From NCBI GenBank assembly GCA_014378485.1, contig JACMNO010000013.1:44721-108720 (forward strand): a DNA stretch of 64,000 nt. The letters run 5' to 3'. Within the stretch, counting starts at the first letter, position 1. Each line of letters starts with the position of its first letter. The translations under genes and the position numbers were made by a program. Shown here piece after piece: positions 38,729-45,192 of this stretch. The notes below the pieces were generated by a model. That model searched no databases, was not told the origin of the DNA, and worked only from the letters and a program-made list of their open reading frames with translations. This stretch comes from Bacteroidia bacterium (GTDB taxonomy: Bacteria > Bacteroidota > Bacteroidia > B-17B0 > Aurantibacillaceae).

Positions 38729-39115
38729 ATGCAAACAAAAAAACCAATGACATTAAACATACTTTTTATTTTATTGGCTGTGGGATTAGCAGCAGGTTTT
38801 TTGAGTGGAATGGTTGGGATTGGAGGTGGGATCATTATTGTGCCGGTGTTAGTTTACTTTTTAGGATTTTCGCAGCATCAGGCACAGGGCACCACGTTGT
38901 TCATGTTTTTATTGCCTATAGGAATTTTAGGAGTAATGAATTATCACAAGGCGGGATATGTAGATTTTAAAACCGGTTTAATTATATGCTCCACGTTTGT
39001 TTTCGGAAGTTATTTCGGTAGTAAGCTATCCATTTCTTTGGATCAAAAAACGGTGAAGCAGATCTTTGGCGCCATCATTATTATTTTAGGGGCTAAGATG
39101 TTGTTCTGGAAATAA
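38729..39115 (+). CDS. Half-size TauE/SafE-family membrane protein
   Basis: A 128-residue membrane protein with four hydrophobic segments. The family motif GFLSGMVGIGGGIIIVPVLV lies at residues 22-41 and LDQKTVKQIFGAIIIILGAK near the end. TauE/SafE proteins usually have about 250 residues and two such halves; this is one half, so it would have to dimerise. I believe half-size members occur in Bacteroidota, so it need not be broken. The substrate (sulfite or another organosulfur anion) is not determined. Confidence 0.85.
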   Translation: MQTKKPMTLNILFILLAVGLAAGFLSGMVGIGGGIIIVPVLVYFLGFSQHQAQGTTLFMFLLPIGILGVMNYHKAGYVDFKTGLIICSTFVFGSYFGSKLSISLDQKTVKQIFGAIIIILGAKMLFWK

Positions 39116-39273: not shown

Positions 39274-39888
39274 TCAATAAATCTTATAAATAAGGCCAAT
39301 GCTCGCCAAATTTGTTTTATATCCTAAACACCCTTCAAAATAGACCCCAAAATCTTTGTAAAAATAATAACGGATTGTTGCTGTGATACCAAAGGCAGGT
39401 AGAATTGTTGATCTGTCAGAAACAGGTGTAATATCTTTTCCATTTACGGTTTTGGAATGATAATATTTAATTCTTACCCCAACTAAAATTCCACTACACA
39501 TGTCTAAATTTTTTCTTACAAAGAATGAATTATGATGCGTTGCTCTAATGGCAATAAGTGAGTTCGACCAAACATTTTCTTTACGACTATTTTGTGCATC
39601 TACATATTCTCGATTAGCGACCCAACTTGATAAATAAGGCCCTAGACCCCAGTATGCATTACTTGCATAAGGATAAATGCAGCGATCGACACCTATAGAT
39701 ATGAATGGCAATCGTTTATAATTTGTAGTTTCTTGTTTAAACTTATAGGTATCAAAGTGTCTTGATAAAGCTCCTGAACCAATATATAAAACAGTAACGC
39801 CTTTTCCAAATGACTGATGCGGTAATGTTACTGTTTGCGAATAACAAAAATGAGCAGTAAATAAAATAACACAAATATATTTTTTCAT
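39274..39888 (-). CDS. Small exported beta-rich protein, likely outer membrane
   Basis: A 204-residue protein with a signal peptide (KYICVILFTAHFCYSQ) and alternating strands (VTVLYIGSGALSRHF, WGLGPYLSSWV, YYFYKDFGVYFEGCLG) ending GLIYKIY, consistent with a small outer-membrane barrel. No domain was recognised. It is the last gene of the AT-rich operon headed by the ABC-HlyD fusion, 10 bases after its neighbour. Base composition is markedly AT-rich. Confidence 0.6.
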   Translation of the reverse strand: MKKYICVILFTAHFCYSQTVTLPHQSFGKGVTVLYIGSGALSRHFDTYKFKQETTNYKRLPFISIGVDRCIYPYASNAYWGLGPYLSSWVANREYVDAQNSRKENVWSNSLIAIRATHHNSFFVRKNLDMCSGILVGVRIKYYHSKTVNGKDITPVSDRSTILPAFGITATIRYYFYKDFGVYFEGCLGYKTNLASIGLIYKIY

Positions 39889-39898
39889 TACTTGATTT

Positions 39899-40483
39899 TT
39901 AATTTGTAATCCAATGTTCCAGTCCTACTTTAAATTGATTAATATAACCTCTAAAAATGGAAACTGTTATTTTCTTATTTAAATGATGCTTTTTTTTATC
40001 TATTTTAAACTCTTTAGGGAAAAATCCAAATTGCAAGTTAGCGTTTACTCTATCAAAATAATCCTGTTCATTACTACTATACAACATACCCTCTTTTGAT
40101 ATTTCAAATAAAGTTAACTCTATACTGTGAGCACTGGATATTCCATTAAACAATATTACACCATTAACCATCACTGCCTTTGCATTATGGTGAGTTAAAT
40201 CCAATAGATTAACTGTATTCAAATAGCCTTTAAAAATTAATTTAGTGTCATCCAAGTCGTCTAACCATTCATCTAATGTATCATTCCCGATTTTAAATTT
40301 GACAAAATCAATAACAATAATTAATTCATGGTTTTCAGGATTGTAAAAAATAACAGAGCTACTATTTAATGAAAAGTATTGCTGGTCATGGTAATGTGTA
40401 TTTACATAAGTTTTCGAAAATTGTATATTCTGAGCATCACTCCTATAACAAATCAGAAACAAAAATATTATTAAATATTTCAT
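39899..40483 (-). CDS. Small exported protein, possibly YceI-like
   Basis: A 194-residue protein with a signal peptide (MKYLIIFLFLICYRSDAQ). The middle part (LIFKGYLNTVNLLDLTHHNA, VNGVILFNGISSAHSIELTL) resembles the lipid-binding beta-barrel YceI family in layout, a barrel strand followed by a G-x-I-x-NG-x-S turn. The similarity is weak and I give it as a suggestion only. It sits 1 base from the preceding gene in the operon, so it is probably translated with it. Confidence 0.5.
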   Translation of the reverse strand: MKYLIIFLFLICYRSDAQNIQFSKTYVNTHYHDQQYFSLNSSSVIFYNPENHELIIVIDFVKFKIGNDTLDEWLDDLDDTKLIFKGYLNTVNLLDLTHHNAKAVMVNGVILFNGISSAHSIELTLFEISKEGMLYSSNEQDYFDRVNANLQFGFFPKEFKIDKKKHHLNKKITVSIFRGYINQFKVGLEHWITN

Positions 40484-40484
40484 T

Positions 40485-40784
40485 TTATATAGCCTTTATA
40501 TTTTTTCTTAGTAATGCGCCAAACTCTTCATTAATATGACTTACCGGTGTGGCATAAATAATCATATTTTTACTAAAAAACTTCTTTTCAATGTCCCTTT
40601 CAATAGTGCTATACAATAAAGCTTTTGTAATAAAGAACAGATGAATCGTTTTCTTTTGACCCGTAATAGTTATGATTTTGTTTGTATCAATATGTGTTTG
40701 TAACGCGTATTTTTGCTTAATAATATAAAGAGATATACTTCCAGCTTTTTTTTCATCATTTAAAATGATGTTAAATATTATCAT
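40485..40784 (-). CDS. Small protein of unknown function
   Basis: A 99-residue protein without a signal peptide or membrane segment. It has alternating strands and helices (MIIFNIILND, IITITGQKKTIHLFFITKA, MIIYATPVSHINEEFGALLR), which would suit a small ferredoxin-like fold such as PII or CutA, but I recognise no family. Its ATG overlaps the end of tolC (ATGA type, 4 bases), so it is translationally coupled to the efflux genes and probably belongs to their function. Confidence 0.6.
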   Translation of the reverse strand: MIIFNIILNDEKKAGSISLYIIKQKYALQTHIDTNKIITITGQKKTIHLFFITKALLYSTIERDIEKKFFSKNMIIYATPVSHINEEFGALLRKNIKAI

Positions 40785-42175
40785 AGTTTATAGTTTAGAC
40801 TTCCGTTTAAATAAATAATATTGAGCACTGTTTTTATAAATTTTAATTTATATTCTGTTAGTTTTAATTCAGATTCAAGCCATTTATTTTCTCTCGTGTT
40901 CATCATAAACAAAGAGCTTTCTCCATTCGAAAATTTTAGTTTTTCCGCTTCAACAAGTTGTTTACTATAGTTGGCGGAGCGTTCTGCATTTTGAAGCTGA
41001 GCTGATAAAATACTTATTGTTTGTTTTAAAGTATTAATTTTAAAATTTAAATCGTTTGTTTTATTCGAAAGCTCTAAATTATTATTTTGAGAAATAATTT
41101 TTGACATTTTGTATTCATTAGCAGGGTTTCTCAATAACAGAGGAAAGGTCAAATTTACACCCCATTTATAATTGTTGTTAGAAAACATTGAATTCAATAC
41201 AGAACTGTTGCTAGATAGTACATTGTATTTTACATTTAAAACTGGTTTTATCATTTCTTTTTTTAATCTATTTTCTATTTCTAAAACTTTTTGTAAAGAA
41301 TTATATTTTGAAATTACCGGATTAGTCACAGGGTTTTGATATAAACTTTCAACTAGTATGATTTTAGCTTTATTAAAATAATAATCGAGGCTATCAAGTG
41401 GTTCAAAATTATTAGTAAAACCTGCCGGACCGTTGTTCTGCCAATTAAATGCAGAAAGATCATTTGCGCTTTTTTGATTGTCAATTAAAGCATTCTGTAA
41501 ATCCAATAATCGTGTTTGATAGAAAATGGCGGCTTCAATAGTATCTACCGCAGCTTTTTCTCCAATATTGGCAAGTGCTTCTATACCTGTAAGCCTTTGC
41601 CTGGCCGCTTCCATAAAATAATTATTTAACGCTATTTGTTTTGCATTAAATAACCACTCAAAATAACGTTGTGAAGATTCGAAGAGTAAATTATTGAGTT
41701 GTACTTGTTTTTCAGCATCGTAATAATTAAGATACTCTTTTGACTTTAAGACTTCTGCTCTTCGCTTATCGATTAATAAACCTTGTAAAACGCCAACTTC
41801 TAAACCTAGATATGGCAGCCCATTTTGTGGCGTATAGAGTTCAGGATTAATGTTTGTTCCTGTACCATAATCATAACCAAATTTTAAGTATTGAGAGGTA
41901 AATAGTGGTTGTTTAACTTCAGCATTTAAAGTGGTATAATAGTTATTTCCATAAAACTGTTTTTGATCGTAGTTTCCACTTATTAATGGATCGTAATTTC
42001 CACGGGCTGCTTTATATTGCAGCTTTCCATATTTTTTTTCATTTTCTGCCCTTTGTGCTAAAGGATTATTTTGCAATACGTTATTAATAAAATCATTGTA
42101 GCTTAACTTAATGCCGTTTTGACTTTTGCTTGACAGTGAGAATATGAGAAATATAAAAGCAAACGATAATTTCAT
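40781..42175 (-). CDS. TolC-family outer-membrane efflux protein
   Basis: Outer-membrane channel of a tripartite exporter. The 464-residue product has a signal peptide (SFAFIFLIFSLSSKSQ) and the TolC layout of two structural repeats with long helices. The N-terminal repeat has LSYNDFINNVLQNNPLAQRA; the C-terminal repeat has LRNPANEYKMSKIISQNNNL and ANYSKQLVEAEKLKFSNGES. It starts 10 bases after the ABC-HlyD fusion, so together they form an export pathway from inner to outer membrane. Confidence 0.9.
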   Translation of the reverse strand: MKLSFAFIFLIFSLSSKSQNGIKLSYNDFINNVLQNNPLAQRAENEKKYGKLQYKAARGNYDPLISGNYDQKQFYGNNYYTTLNAEVKQPLFTSQYLKFGYDYGTGTNINPELYTPQNGLPYLGLEVGVLQGLLIDKRRAEVLKSKEYLNYYDAEKQVQLNNLLFESSQRYFEWLFNAKQIALNNYFMEAARQRLTGIEALANIGEKAAVDTIEAAIFYQTRLLDLQNALIDNQKSANDLSAFNWQNNGPAGFTNNFEPLDSLDYYFNKAKIILVESLYQNPVTNPVISKYNSLQKVLEIENRLKKEMIKPVLNVKYNVLSSNSSVLNSMFSNNNYKWGVNLTFPLLLRNPANEYKMSKIISQNNNLELSNKTNDLNFKINTLKQTISILSAQLQNAERSANYSKQLVEAEKLKFSNGESSLFMMNTRENKWLESELKLTEYKLKFIKTVLNIIYLNGSLNYKL

Positions 42176-42185
42176 AATAATATTA

Positions 42186-44423
42186 TTATTTATTTTTACT
42201 CGAATCTAAATTCACATAAAATTCAGGCGGAAAGCCGTTTGCTTTTCTCCATAGCTCATAAAATAGCGGCACATTTTTTAAAAGAGCAAAGCCTTCAACG
42301 CCACTTCCAATTTGTATTGCTTCCGGCCATGCTTTTCCGCTATTTTTTGCTAAAATCCTAAATTTTCCATTATCAGATAAAACTTTATCAAATGCAACAA
42401 TTTCTGATGTGTAAGTACCGTAACTTATACCTGGCCAACCTGAAAAAACAAAAGCAGGCCAGCCGTCAAATTGAAGTTGAACTTTCTGGCCAACTTGAAT
42501 AAGAGGCAAATCAATAGGATTAATATATAGTTCAACCACCTGTTCGCTATGTAAAGGTACAATGTTGCATAAAGAAGCTCCTTCTTTAATAATTTCTCCG
42601 ATACCCTGAATATTAGTTTTTGTAATGTAACCATTCTGAGGCGCCAAAACATAATAAAAACCTTTTCGTAAAGTATAATTTGCCAGCTGGTTTTGTAATT
42701 TTGTCAGTGCCCCCTCACCCTCATATAATAATGATAAAACAGAAAACTTATCTGATTCAGCCTTCATTAGTTTTTCTTGATATTCCTGTTGTATTGAATT
42801 TAAATCTATTTCCGAATTTAGAAATTCATTCTTTGTAGACATAAATTTGTTGTCAGCGGAAGTTTTTTTGGCAAGCGCTTCCTGAACTTTTATTCTTCGA
42901 TTTTCTAAATCTGTTTTAGATATTACACCTTTACCAAATAATTCTTCGTAACGTTTTAACTGTTCCTCTGCTACTTTAAAATTATTTGATGATGTGTGAG
43001 ATTCAATGCTATCTGTAGAGATTTTAATTTTAGCTTGTACAATTTTATTTCGGGCTTGTTCAATTTTTAAACTCAAGGATTTATTTAAAGCATTGATTTG
43101 CGAATTTACTGCGTTAATTTTATCTTCATAAGACTCTAATGTTGTTTCTTTTGAATCTATTATCTGTTCGGAACGGTTAATCAATTGAGGATCCATATAT
43201 TCATCTTTTATCTCCGAAATAAAAGCGATGGTATCGTTTTTATCTACCAAATCACCATCCATGATATACCACATTTCTATTCTGCCTGCTATTCTAGAAG
43301 TAATTGTTTGTGGTCTATTCTCTGGGTTTAGCGTTGTTACTTTGCCATTTGATTGAATATTTTGTGTCCATGGCAAAAACAAAATTATCACTGCAGTTAA
43401 AATTAAACTATACAAAGAGTATCTTATTACTCTAGAATATCGATGATTATAAGCTTGTGATTGACTTTGTAATTTTTTACTTTGGGTATCAAGTAAAGAA
43501 TATTGTGGTTGGTGGTTAAATACTTCTTCAATTTTGTATAGTGAAGTTATTATATCATAGCAAACACTTAAACTGCCAACTAACTTCTCTATAGAATTAA
43601 TAACCAAAAGTATAATAATCTCCGATGCTATAAATTGTCCAATATTTAAATCACCTCGTAAAACTAAGTAGGCACCAAAAAACAACAAAACACTTATAAA
43701 TAAAACTTTAAAAATAATAATTCCCTTAAATTGAGTCTCTAATACACTATAATGGTGTTTTCGATTATCAAAATATTGACCTAGTCTTTTTTCCGTTCCC
43801 GAATTTAAATCACTCTCGATATCATTTTTCAAAGCATACTTCTGAAACCATTCCAAGAGTTTATATTTTTGGTTGGACGTTTCTATGTTTGTATCAATAC
43901 CCTTTTTGCCGTAATAACTAACTATAAAATAAAATATACCCCCTAATAAAATGACAAATACTAAAAACCATGAACTATATATTGGTAGAATTAATAAACC
44001 AAAAATTATACTGATAACTGAAAACGATAAATCTAATAGTATCTTACTAATTCCCTTTTGCAGTGTTACTACTTCTAAATATTTATTTATTTTAGGTAAG
44101 ATTTCAATTGAAGGTGTTGAATCCAATAAAAAATTATTTATTCTCGAAGTCAAATCGCCAAATATTTTTTGATGGAGTGTTTCATTTATTCGCATTTGCC
44201 ATAACTGAAAAAACCCGATAAACACAGTTATAATTATAACAATACAACTTAATAAAATAAGGGAAGCAGAAAAACTTCCTGCCATTATATAAGTAATAAT
44301 ACCTTGAATCCCCATTGGGATAGAAATATATAGGACTGCTTGTAAAAGAGCTAACACATATATTTTATTGATTATAGCTCTTTCGTTATGAAGCCACCTA
44401 AATAATAATTTTGCTTTGTTCAC
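42186..44423 (-). CDS. Fusion of an ABC-exporter transmembrane domain (no ATPase) with an HlyD-type adaptor
   Basis: A single 745-residue ORF. Residues 1 to about 310 form a type I exporter transmembrane domain: six hydrophobic helices (VLYISIPMGIQGIITYIM, FLVFVILLGGIFYFIVSYYG) and FIASEIIILLVINSIEKLVG at its end. The nucleotide-binding domain that should follow is absent; there is no Walker A GxxGxGK and no LSGGQ. After a linker of about 25 residues comes an HlyD-type adaptor: membrane helix VIRYSLYSLILTAVIILFLPW, lipoyl-like RPQTITSRIAGRIEMWYIMD, a long coiled coil (about 410-590), a second lipoyl half YVLAPQNGYITKTNIQGIGE, and a C-terminal beta-barrel ending LWRKANGFPPEFY. Relatives I know are two separate genes, an ABC protein and an adaptor. 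The ATG lies 8 bases from the predicted start site. Confidence 0.88.
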   Translation of the reverse strand: MNKAKLLFRWLHNERAIINKIYVLALLQAVLYISIPMGIQGIITYIMAGSFSASLILLSCIVIIITVFIGFFQLWQMRINETLHQKIFGDLTSRINNFLLDSTPSIEILPKINKYLEVVTLQKGISKILLDLSFSVISIIFGLLILPIYSSWFLVFVILLGGIFYFIVSYYGKKGIDTNIETSNQKYKLLEWFQKYALKNDIESDLNSGTEKRLGQYFDNRKHHYSVLETQFKGIIIFKVLFISVLLFFGAYLVLRGDLNIGQFIASEIIILLVINSIEKLVGSLSVCYDIITSLYKIEEVFNHQPQYSLLDTQSKKLQSQSQAYNHRYSRVIRYSLYSLILTAVIILFLPWTQNIQSNGKVTTLNPENRPQTITSRIAGRIEMWYIMDGDLVDKNDTIAFISEIKDEYMDPQLINRSEQIIDSKETTLESYEDKINAVNSQINALNKSLSLKIEQARNKIVQAKIKISTDSIESHTSSNNFKVAEEQLKRYEELFGKGVISKTDLENRRIKVQEALAKKTSADNKFMSTKNEFLNSEIDLNSIQQEYQEKLMKAESDKFSVLSLLYEGEGALTKLQNQLANYTLRKGFYYVLAPQNGYITKTNIQGIGEIIKEGASLCNIVPLHSEQVVELYINPIDLPLIQVGQKVQLQFDGWPAFVFSGWPGISYGTYTSEIVAFDKVLSDNGKFRILAKNSGKAWPEAIQIGSGVEGFALLKNVPLFYELWRKANGFPPEFYVNLDSSKNK

Positions 44424-44461: not shown

Positions 44462-44478
44462 TAATAGTATTACTATTA
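44462..44478. promoter_or_regulatory. 17-base palindrome, likely operator of the TetR-type regulator
   Basis: TAATAGTA-T-TACTATTA is a perfect palindrome between two divergent -7 elements (44438 on minus, 44487 on plus). It covers the -33 region of the regulator gene. Position and symmetry fit a TetR-family operator controlling both directions. Confidence 0.65.
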
Positions 44479-44514: not shown

Positions 44515-45192
44515 ATGGAATTGGAAGTAAGAATTAAAATGAATGATAAATTGTTTATTCGTGATCCTGAAGTTACAATTTTAGGACAAACAATTATAAA
44601 GCAAGGTCTCGTTTTAATAAACAAGCTTGGTTTTGAAATATTTACTTTTAAAAAATTAGCTTCCGAAATTAATACGACAGAAGCTAGCATTTATCGCTAC
44701 TTTGAGAATAAACATAGGTTGTTAGTGTACCTGATTACATGGTATTGGAGTTATCTTGAGTATAAAGTTCTTTTCAGCTTAAATAACATGAAAGACCCTG
44801 AAATTAAACTTAAAACAATAATAAAATTAATTGCCGAAGAACCCTTGAATAAAGGTTTAAATTCGGACTTTTTATCAGAATATGAAGCTTATAAATTAGT
44901 AATAAGTGAAGGATCAAAAGCTTATCTAACCCACAACGTAAGCAAAGATAATAAAAATAGGATTTTTAAACCTTACAAGGATTTGTGCGAACGTTTTTCT
45001 TCAATAATTAAAGAATATAATCCAAAGTATGAATTCCCACATTCTTTGGCAAGCTCACTTTTAGAGATTTCATATTCACAAAAATTCTTTAAGGAAAATC
45101 TCCCCTCTTTGACTGATTTTGCAAAAGAACAAGACAATAAGAAAATGATTGTATTTTTAGAATCTTTGCTTTTCAACTCTTTAAAACACTAA
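44515..45192 (+). CDS. TetR/AcrR-family transcriptional regulator
   Basis: Likely local repressor of the efflux operon, which is transcribed divergently. From the ATG at 44515 the product has 225 residues. The N-terminal helix-turn-helix is FTFKKLASEINTTEASIYRY followed by FENKHRLLVYLITWYWSYLEY, the TetR signature (about residues 40-75). The remaining helices form a ligand domain with no recognisable subfamily. The ORF track adds 33 residues from the promoter region (VIISANIVYIYTVIVLLLY), which I reject. Confidence 0.88.
   Translation: MELEVRIKMNDKLFIRDPEVTILGQTIIKQGLVLINKLGFEIFTFKKLASEINTTEASIYRYFENKHRLLVYLITWYWSYLEYKVLFSLNNMKDPEIKLKTIIKLIAEEPLNKGLNSDFLSEYEAYKLVISEGSKAYLTHNVSKDNKNRIFKPYKDLCERFSSIIKEYNPKYEFPHSLASSLLEISYSQKFFKENLPSLTDFAKEQDNKKMIVFLESLLFNSLKH

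Follow-up and report, generated by a model that had tools for sequence, protein, structure and literature searches.

The fused gene and its operon

In the window analysed here, a stretch of 64,000 nucleotides of contig JACMNO010000013.1 from a Bacteroidia bacterium, one open reading frame joins the transmembrane domain (TMD) of an ABC exporter, without its ATPase or nucleotide-binding domain (NBD), to an HlyD-type adaptor (Table 1). The tolC-like gene follows after a gap of 10 bp, which agrees with the initial annotation, and wherever this flank of a full-length fused locus is available, tolC is the neighbour of the fused gene. In roughly one in three of the fused loci examined, a homolog of the accessory 99-aa gene lies 3' of tolC, and some operons with separate genes (G129, G167) have one after tolC as well; the product of this gene may be a fourth, optional member of the operon. 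On the other side, a divergent tetR is present at most fused loci. In the window this gene probably starts at the ATG at 44515, and the TTG given as its start in the ORF list (44416) is likely too early; its orthologs mostly encode proteins of 223-234 aa. Nearly every ortholog of the fused gene that was examined is preceded by the palindrome ATAGTA-N-TACTAT, either exact or slightly changed. A regulon search with the operator pattern gave one other site in the genome, no more than the reversed control, and no cargo gene was found to be conserved in the neighbourhood of the fused operons.

Table 1. Genes and features of the fused exporter locus (positions in the window).
Feature	Position	Strand	Remarks
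Fused gene, ABC-exporter membrane domain without NBD plus HlyD-type adaptor	42186..44423	-	745 aa, GTG start
Six-helix type IV ABC exporter membrane domain, residues 1-301	43521..44423	-	AF2 model, Foldseek
Glu268 in TM6	43620..43622	-	Family alignment
Cytoplasmic linker at the expected NBD site, residues 302-330	43434..43520	-	
Seventh helix, residues 331-349, equivalent to the N-terminal anchor helix of a separate HlyD	43377..43433	-	
Periplasmic HlyD/EmrA-type adaptor, residues 350-745, plus stop codon	42186..43376	-	
Long alpha-hairpin of the adaptor, residues 412-585	42669..43190	-	AF2 secondary structure
tolC-like outer membrane channel gene	40781..42175	-	464 aa; Pfam OEP, E 3.8e-24
Accessory 99-aa gene	40485..40784	-	No Pfam family; 4-bp overlap with tolC stop
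Divergent tetR	44515..45192	+	225 aa; TetR_N, E 1.6e-7
Operator-like palindrome (TAATAGTA-N-TACTATTA) in the intergenic region of tetR and the fused gene	44462..44478		

The surroundings of the operon contain two further items. At 39274-40483 on the minus strand lie two ORFs of 204 and 194 aa without Pfam families, which are also found beside a few other fused operons. At 38729-39115 (+), a 128-aa TauE/SafE-type protein matches only the C-terminal half of the profile (129-237 of 237) and is possibly a half-size transporter.

The initial annotation described a continuous 745-residue frame running from exporter helices into an HlyD adaptor, and Pfam, NCBIfam and the structure model all confirm it. 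In the full protein, Pfam places ABC_membrane at residues 22-176 (E 2.5e-5, slightly under the gathering score) and HlyD_D23 and HlyD_3 at residues 509-662, and in NCBIfam residues 5-322 align with the membrane part of peptide/bacteriocin exporters and residues 418-656 with type I HlyD. ABC_tran gives no match in the 745-aa protein, and a search for a hidden NBD by Pfam, NCBIfam and motifs found none. The Walker A and signature motifs were observed in 0 of 33 non-redundant fused homologs, the first set collected and the one used for the motif search, which bears out the absence of the ATPase domain.

The AlphaFold2 model of the full-length protein is of moderate quality (pLDDT 72, pTM 0.49). 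As the fold search with this model was dominated by the adaptor half, I modelled the membrane part separately, using residues 1-352 with 62 relatives (pLDDT 90.2, pTM 0.85). Six long exporter helices are observed in this second model (15-47, 53-101, 108-149, 153-198, 206-256 and 261-301), followed by the seventh helix at 331-349, and its best fold matches are PCAT1, TmrAB, ComA and HlyB, with query TM-scores of 0.59-0.73 (Foldseek). The adaptor half has the composition of HlyD and EmrA, a barrel-sandwich domain and a long alpha-hairpin after one membrane helix, and its structural matches are EmrA, MacA and HlyD, the EmrA-type adaptors (EmrAB-TolC) being the closest.

Origin of the fusion and decay of the ATPase

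From the window alone, the missing ATPase could be a segment that was lost in assembly, a possibility that the initial annotation had itself named, or the gene could be a decaying pseudogene. However, full-length fused orthologs with an open frame are present in 34 of the 87 genomes of the order (51-76% identity), including one where the contig spans 5,648,308 bases (5.65 Mb), and for this reason chance and assembly loss are excluded. With the junction conserved and the gene under purifying selection as well, the probability of an assembly error or a pseudogene is negligible. The adaptor tree, built with a quick method, groups the fused genes in a single clade (SH-aLRT 100), and the TMD tree does so too. 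The fused gene is also present in three genomes from other families, likely by transfer, though these are probably MAGs in which misbinned contigs are possible. No further fused case was found in a phylum-wide sample of 393 genomes, and among the genomes of the order none was seen to hold both the fused and a complete split system. Judged from these comparisons, the fusion is old, of single origin and common to many genomes, and not a recent deletion.

In the split relatives the genes run ABC-hlyD-tolC; a homologous tetR often lies upstream, its product being roughly 31-48% identical to the TetR of the window, and in many of these operons a matching operator palindrome precedes tetR. Salibacter halophilus and Lishizhenia have split operons with homologous genes in this order, and Riemerella anatipestifer (WP_004920602.1/WP_004920599.1) has a split relative without an adjacent tetR. 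The split operons of Bacteroidota differ from the fused ones in that the genes are separate and the NBD, though degenerate, is still there. In the basal fused proteins a remnant of the linker between TMD and NBD survives (VFDLEENED..., against VTDLELE... in split ABCs), after which come a stretch resembling the N-terminus of HlyD and its membrane helix. This arrangement fits a loss that would have run from the start of the NBD into the start of hlyD. Since gene order, the homologous TetR, the shared operator and the relics on both sides of the junction agree, comparison of sequences supports the view that the fused gene derives from an ABC + HlyD + TolC set in which the ATPase was lost and two genes became one.

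The ATPase that was lost appears to have been in decay already. Among 45 NBDs of the split family in Bacteroidia relatives, 44 retain the Walker A lysine, none the signature SGG, two the catalytic Walker B glutamate and two the switch histidine, with canonical exporters from the same genome as controls for the motif scoring. In seven relatives that belong to other classes of this phylum (L203-L209), Walker A, the Walker B DE and the histidine are retained, and most of these proteins (four or more) have an LSTG-type signature. From this pattern, the ATPase lost by the fused lineage would already have been degenerate in most Bacteroidia relatives.

At six further loci (L213-L218) the ABC gene consists of the membrane domain only (332-339 aa), followed by separate hlyD and tolC genes. 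No NBD was found near these six loci, some of which lie in complete or near-complete genomes. Like the fused operons they lack an NBD and have hlyD and tolC adjoining, but their TMD is a separate gene and retains the first docking loop, which the fused clade does not. In the TMD tree these proteins form a clade of their own (100), next to relatives with a degenerate NBD and separate from the fused proteins, which therefore points to a second, independent loss, and the NBD was most likely lost at least twice. The in-frame deletion proposed in the initial annotation, which would have removed the ATPase and joined the two genes, stands as far as the loss and the joining are concerned, supported by order, TetR, operator and junction relics. 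It needs amending in three respects: the event is old, with one origin and many carriers; the ATPase was already degenerate in most Bacteroidia relatives; and the NBD was most likely lost more than once.

Outside the phylum, two relatives on Novosphingobium plasmids (Alphaproteobacteria; L221:2602-4320 and L223:2593-4317), annotated as ABC transporter (ATP-binding or transmembrane), have an NBD without even Walker A and keep the TM6 glutamate.

Docking loops, selection and conserved charges

Many ABC systems rely on separate ATPases, and the fused protein could be powered in trans by an ABC ATPase encoded elsewhere, as the initial annotation had suggested. The loops on which an NBD would dock, near residues 89-115 and 188-222, are however eroded in the fused protein. 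Whereas the identity ratios of loop to core are 0.97 and 0.95 in the split relatives, they are 0.47 and 0.25 in the crown fused proteins, and the loops are shortened from 32 and 28 residues in the split relatives to 25-30 and 14-23 in the crown. In the four basal fused proteins the loops are of full length with their motifs lost (ratios 0.81 and 0.50). Both loops of the fused clade have thus lost their motifs, and in the crown also length. The TMD-only sister clade, in which the first docking loop is kept (ratio 1.21) and the second partly lost (0.69), speaks for a partner ATPase to some extent; there, the first loop may have another role or may serve such a partner.

The search for a lone partner in the home genome points the same way as the eroded loops. 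All exporter-type NBDs read in that genome lie within full TMD-NBD ORFs, and the lone NBDs with a readable Walker B belong to other classes and carry DEP-type motifs, except L132 (DET) and L134 (DEV). No orphan exporter-type NBD was found among those with readable motifs in this genome, which is about 89% complete, so that one could be missed, and no ATPase gene was found near the fused locus. ABC_tran counts are not clearly higher in genomes holding the fused gene (28 vs 19 genomes, p 0.21). Because the docking loops are eroded and an orphan exporter-type ATPase was not found among the readable NBDs of this genome, I consider a borrowed ATPase improbable.

The membrane core of the fused clade, on the other hand, is under strong purifying selection, with omega at 0.015-0.14 for the TMD core and 0.02-0.11 for the adaptor (closest pairs; rough values, as synonymous sites are near saturation). 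Together with the conserved tolC and tetR neighbourhood and the shared operator, this selection agrees with the initial annotation that the unit is still maintained. It also bears on a passive role of the TMD, which might merely anchor or space the adaptors around TolC, or let the substrate diffuse down its own gradient. The lack of a visible energy source and the relaxed cytoplasm-facing loops are in accordance with such a conduit or scaffold, and the fusion would aid its assembly. But a plain anchor is not expected to keep an identity of about 0.66 across the whole TMD core, nor the low omega of that core or the invariant charges E81, K123, K186, E268 and K297, and I regard a passive role as rather unlikely.

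An alignment of 63 family members, fused and split, shows seven residues without variation (Q40, E81, K123, S183, K186, E268 and K297); for Glu268 the count is 35 fused and 28 split proteins. By alignment, E268 corresponds to Phe331 of mouse P-gp, a cavity position in TM6. For comparison with the glutamate ladder that lines the cavity of SbmA/BacA, the glutamates E81, E268 and E279 are conserved here, E268 at this likely cavity position, but a glutamate at the E268 position is also present in six of the seven near-canonical-NBD relatives; no canonical ABC of the peptidase type in the class examined has it. Initially, I considered that Glu268 in TM6 had arisen together with the decay of the ATPase, an idea that was dropped as the near-canonical-NBD relatives have it too. 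For the same reason E268 is no marker of ATP independence. It is at most a pre-existing feature, which could have been recruited.

A predicted ATP-independent tripartite exporter

Tripartite exporters are classed by their engine as ABC, RND or MFS systems. The architecture observed here is a variant of the tripartite or type I exporters, but it lacks the ATPase by which these are defined. With type I secretion (HlyB-HlyD-TolC; PCAT1, ComA) it has in common the type IV ABC membrane fold, the HlyD-type adaptor and the TolC partner, yet the fused protein lacks the NBD with Walker A/B and LSGGQ, has no C39-like domain, combines TMD and adaptor in one chain, and stands under TetR control with a conserved operator. 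EmrB shows that adaptors of the EmrA type can serve a proton-driven pump, although EmrB is an MFS protein and does not have the ABC fold of the fused TMD.

A precedent is offered by SbmA, a descendant of full ABC transporters that has neither NBDs nor coupling helices and uses protons as its driving force by way of conserved glutamates (PMC13316013). SbmA/BacA (SLiPT) and the fused protein both have an ABC-exporter-type membrane domain and no NBD, and the loss of the coupling helices is paralleled in the short, poorly conserved loops of the crown fused proteins, the basal four having full-length loops without motifs. The fused protein differs in that it has no extra TM0 domain and is tied to an adaptor and TolC, that is, to export and not import, and no match to the SbmA/BacA family of Pfam was obtained at E up to 1. 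By this analogy, and if the reading is right, the fused system would work like SbmA in reverse.

On balance I lean, by a narrow preference, towards a tripartite exporter that became ATP-independent and is probably driven by an ion gradient, parallel to SbmA/BacA, with a single-chain inner-membrane component. The locus would then encode a TetR-regulated exporter that pairs with the operon's own TolC-like protein and in which an ATPase-less ABC membrane domain, a short cytoplasmic linker and the system's own HlyD-type adaptor form one predicted chain. Its ancestor, as comparison with the relatives shows, was a tetR-ABC-hlyD-tolC operon, with an NBD that seems to have lost its catalytic motifs by then; subsequently, if the order of steps is as it seems, the rest of the NBD was lost and the TMD joined in frame to hlyD. 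HlyB and HlyD are present as six chains each in 8dck, a 1:1 ratio of TMD to adaptor that the fusion would have fixed. The membrane domain most likely still dimerises and alternates access, presumably with an ion (proton) gradient in place of ATP as in SbmA/BacA, and would hand the substrate into the duct of adaptor and TolC. The divergent arrangement and the conserved operator suggest that the substrate or a related compound derepresses TetR.

More tentatively, with a chance that I put somewhat short of even, the family may constitute a new class of exporter spanning the envelope: type I machinery once driven by ATP would have become a secondary tripartite pump that runs on an ion gradient, with all states of this change still living. 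The states found in the family are a near-canonical NBD, a degenerate NBD, an NBD-less separate TMD, and an NBD-less TMD fused to the adaptor, and if the conversion is true, the switch from primary to secondary transport could be traced step by step. In the open literature, to which the search was confined, neither the fusion of HlyD to an ABC membrane domain lacking its NBD nor the degenerate-NBD systems of Bacteroidota were found described. The family shows an ABC-type exporter whose ATPase decays and vanishes repeatedly while the remainder stays under selection, which challenges the annotation 'ABC transporter ATP-binding protein' for such genes, and its predicted transport would make it, after SbmA, a second natural example of an ABC fold that transports with no ATPase. 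The one-chain inner-membrane component should be useful for structural work, and as cultured bacteria carry split relatives (Salibacter halophilus, Novosphingobium aromaticivorans), part of the question can be tested now.
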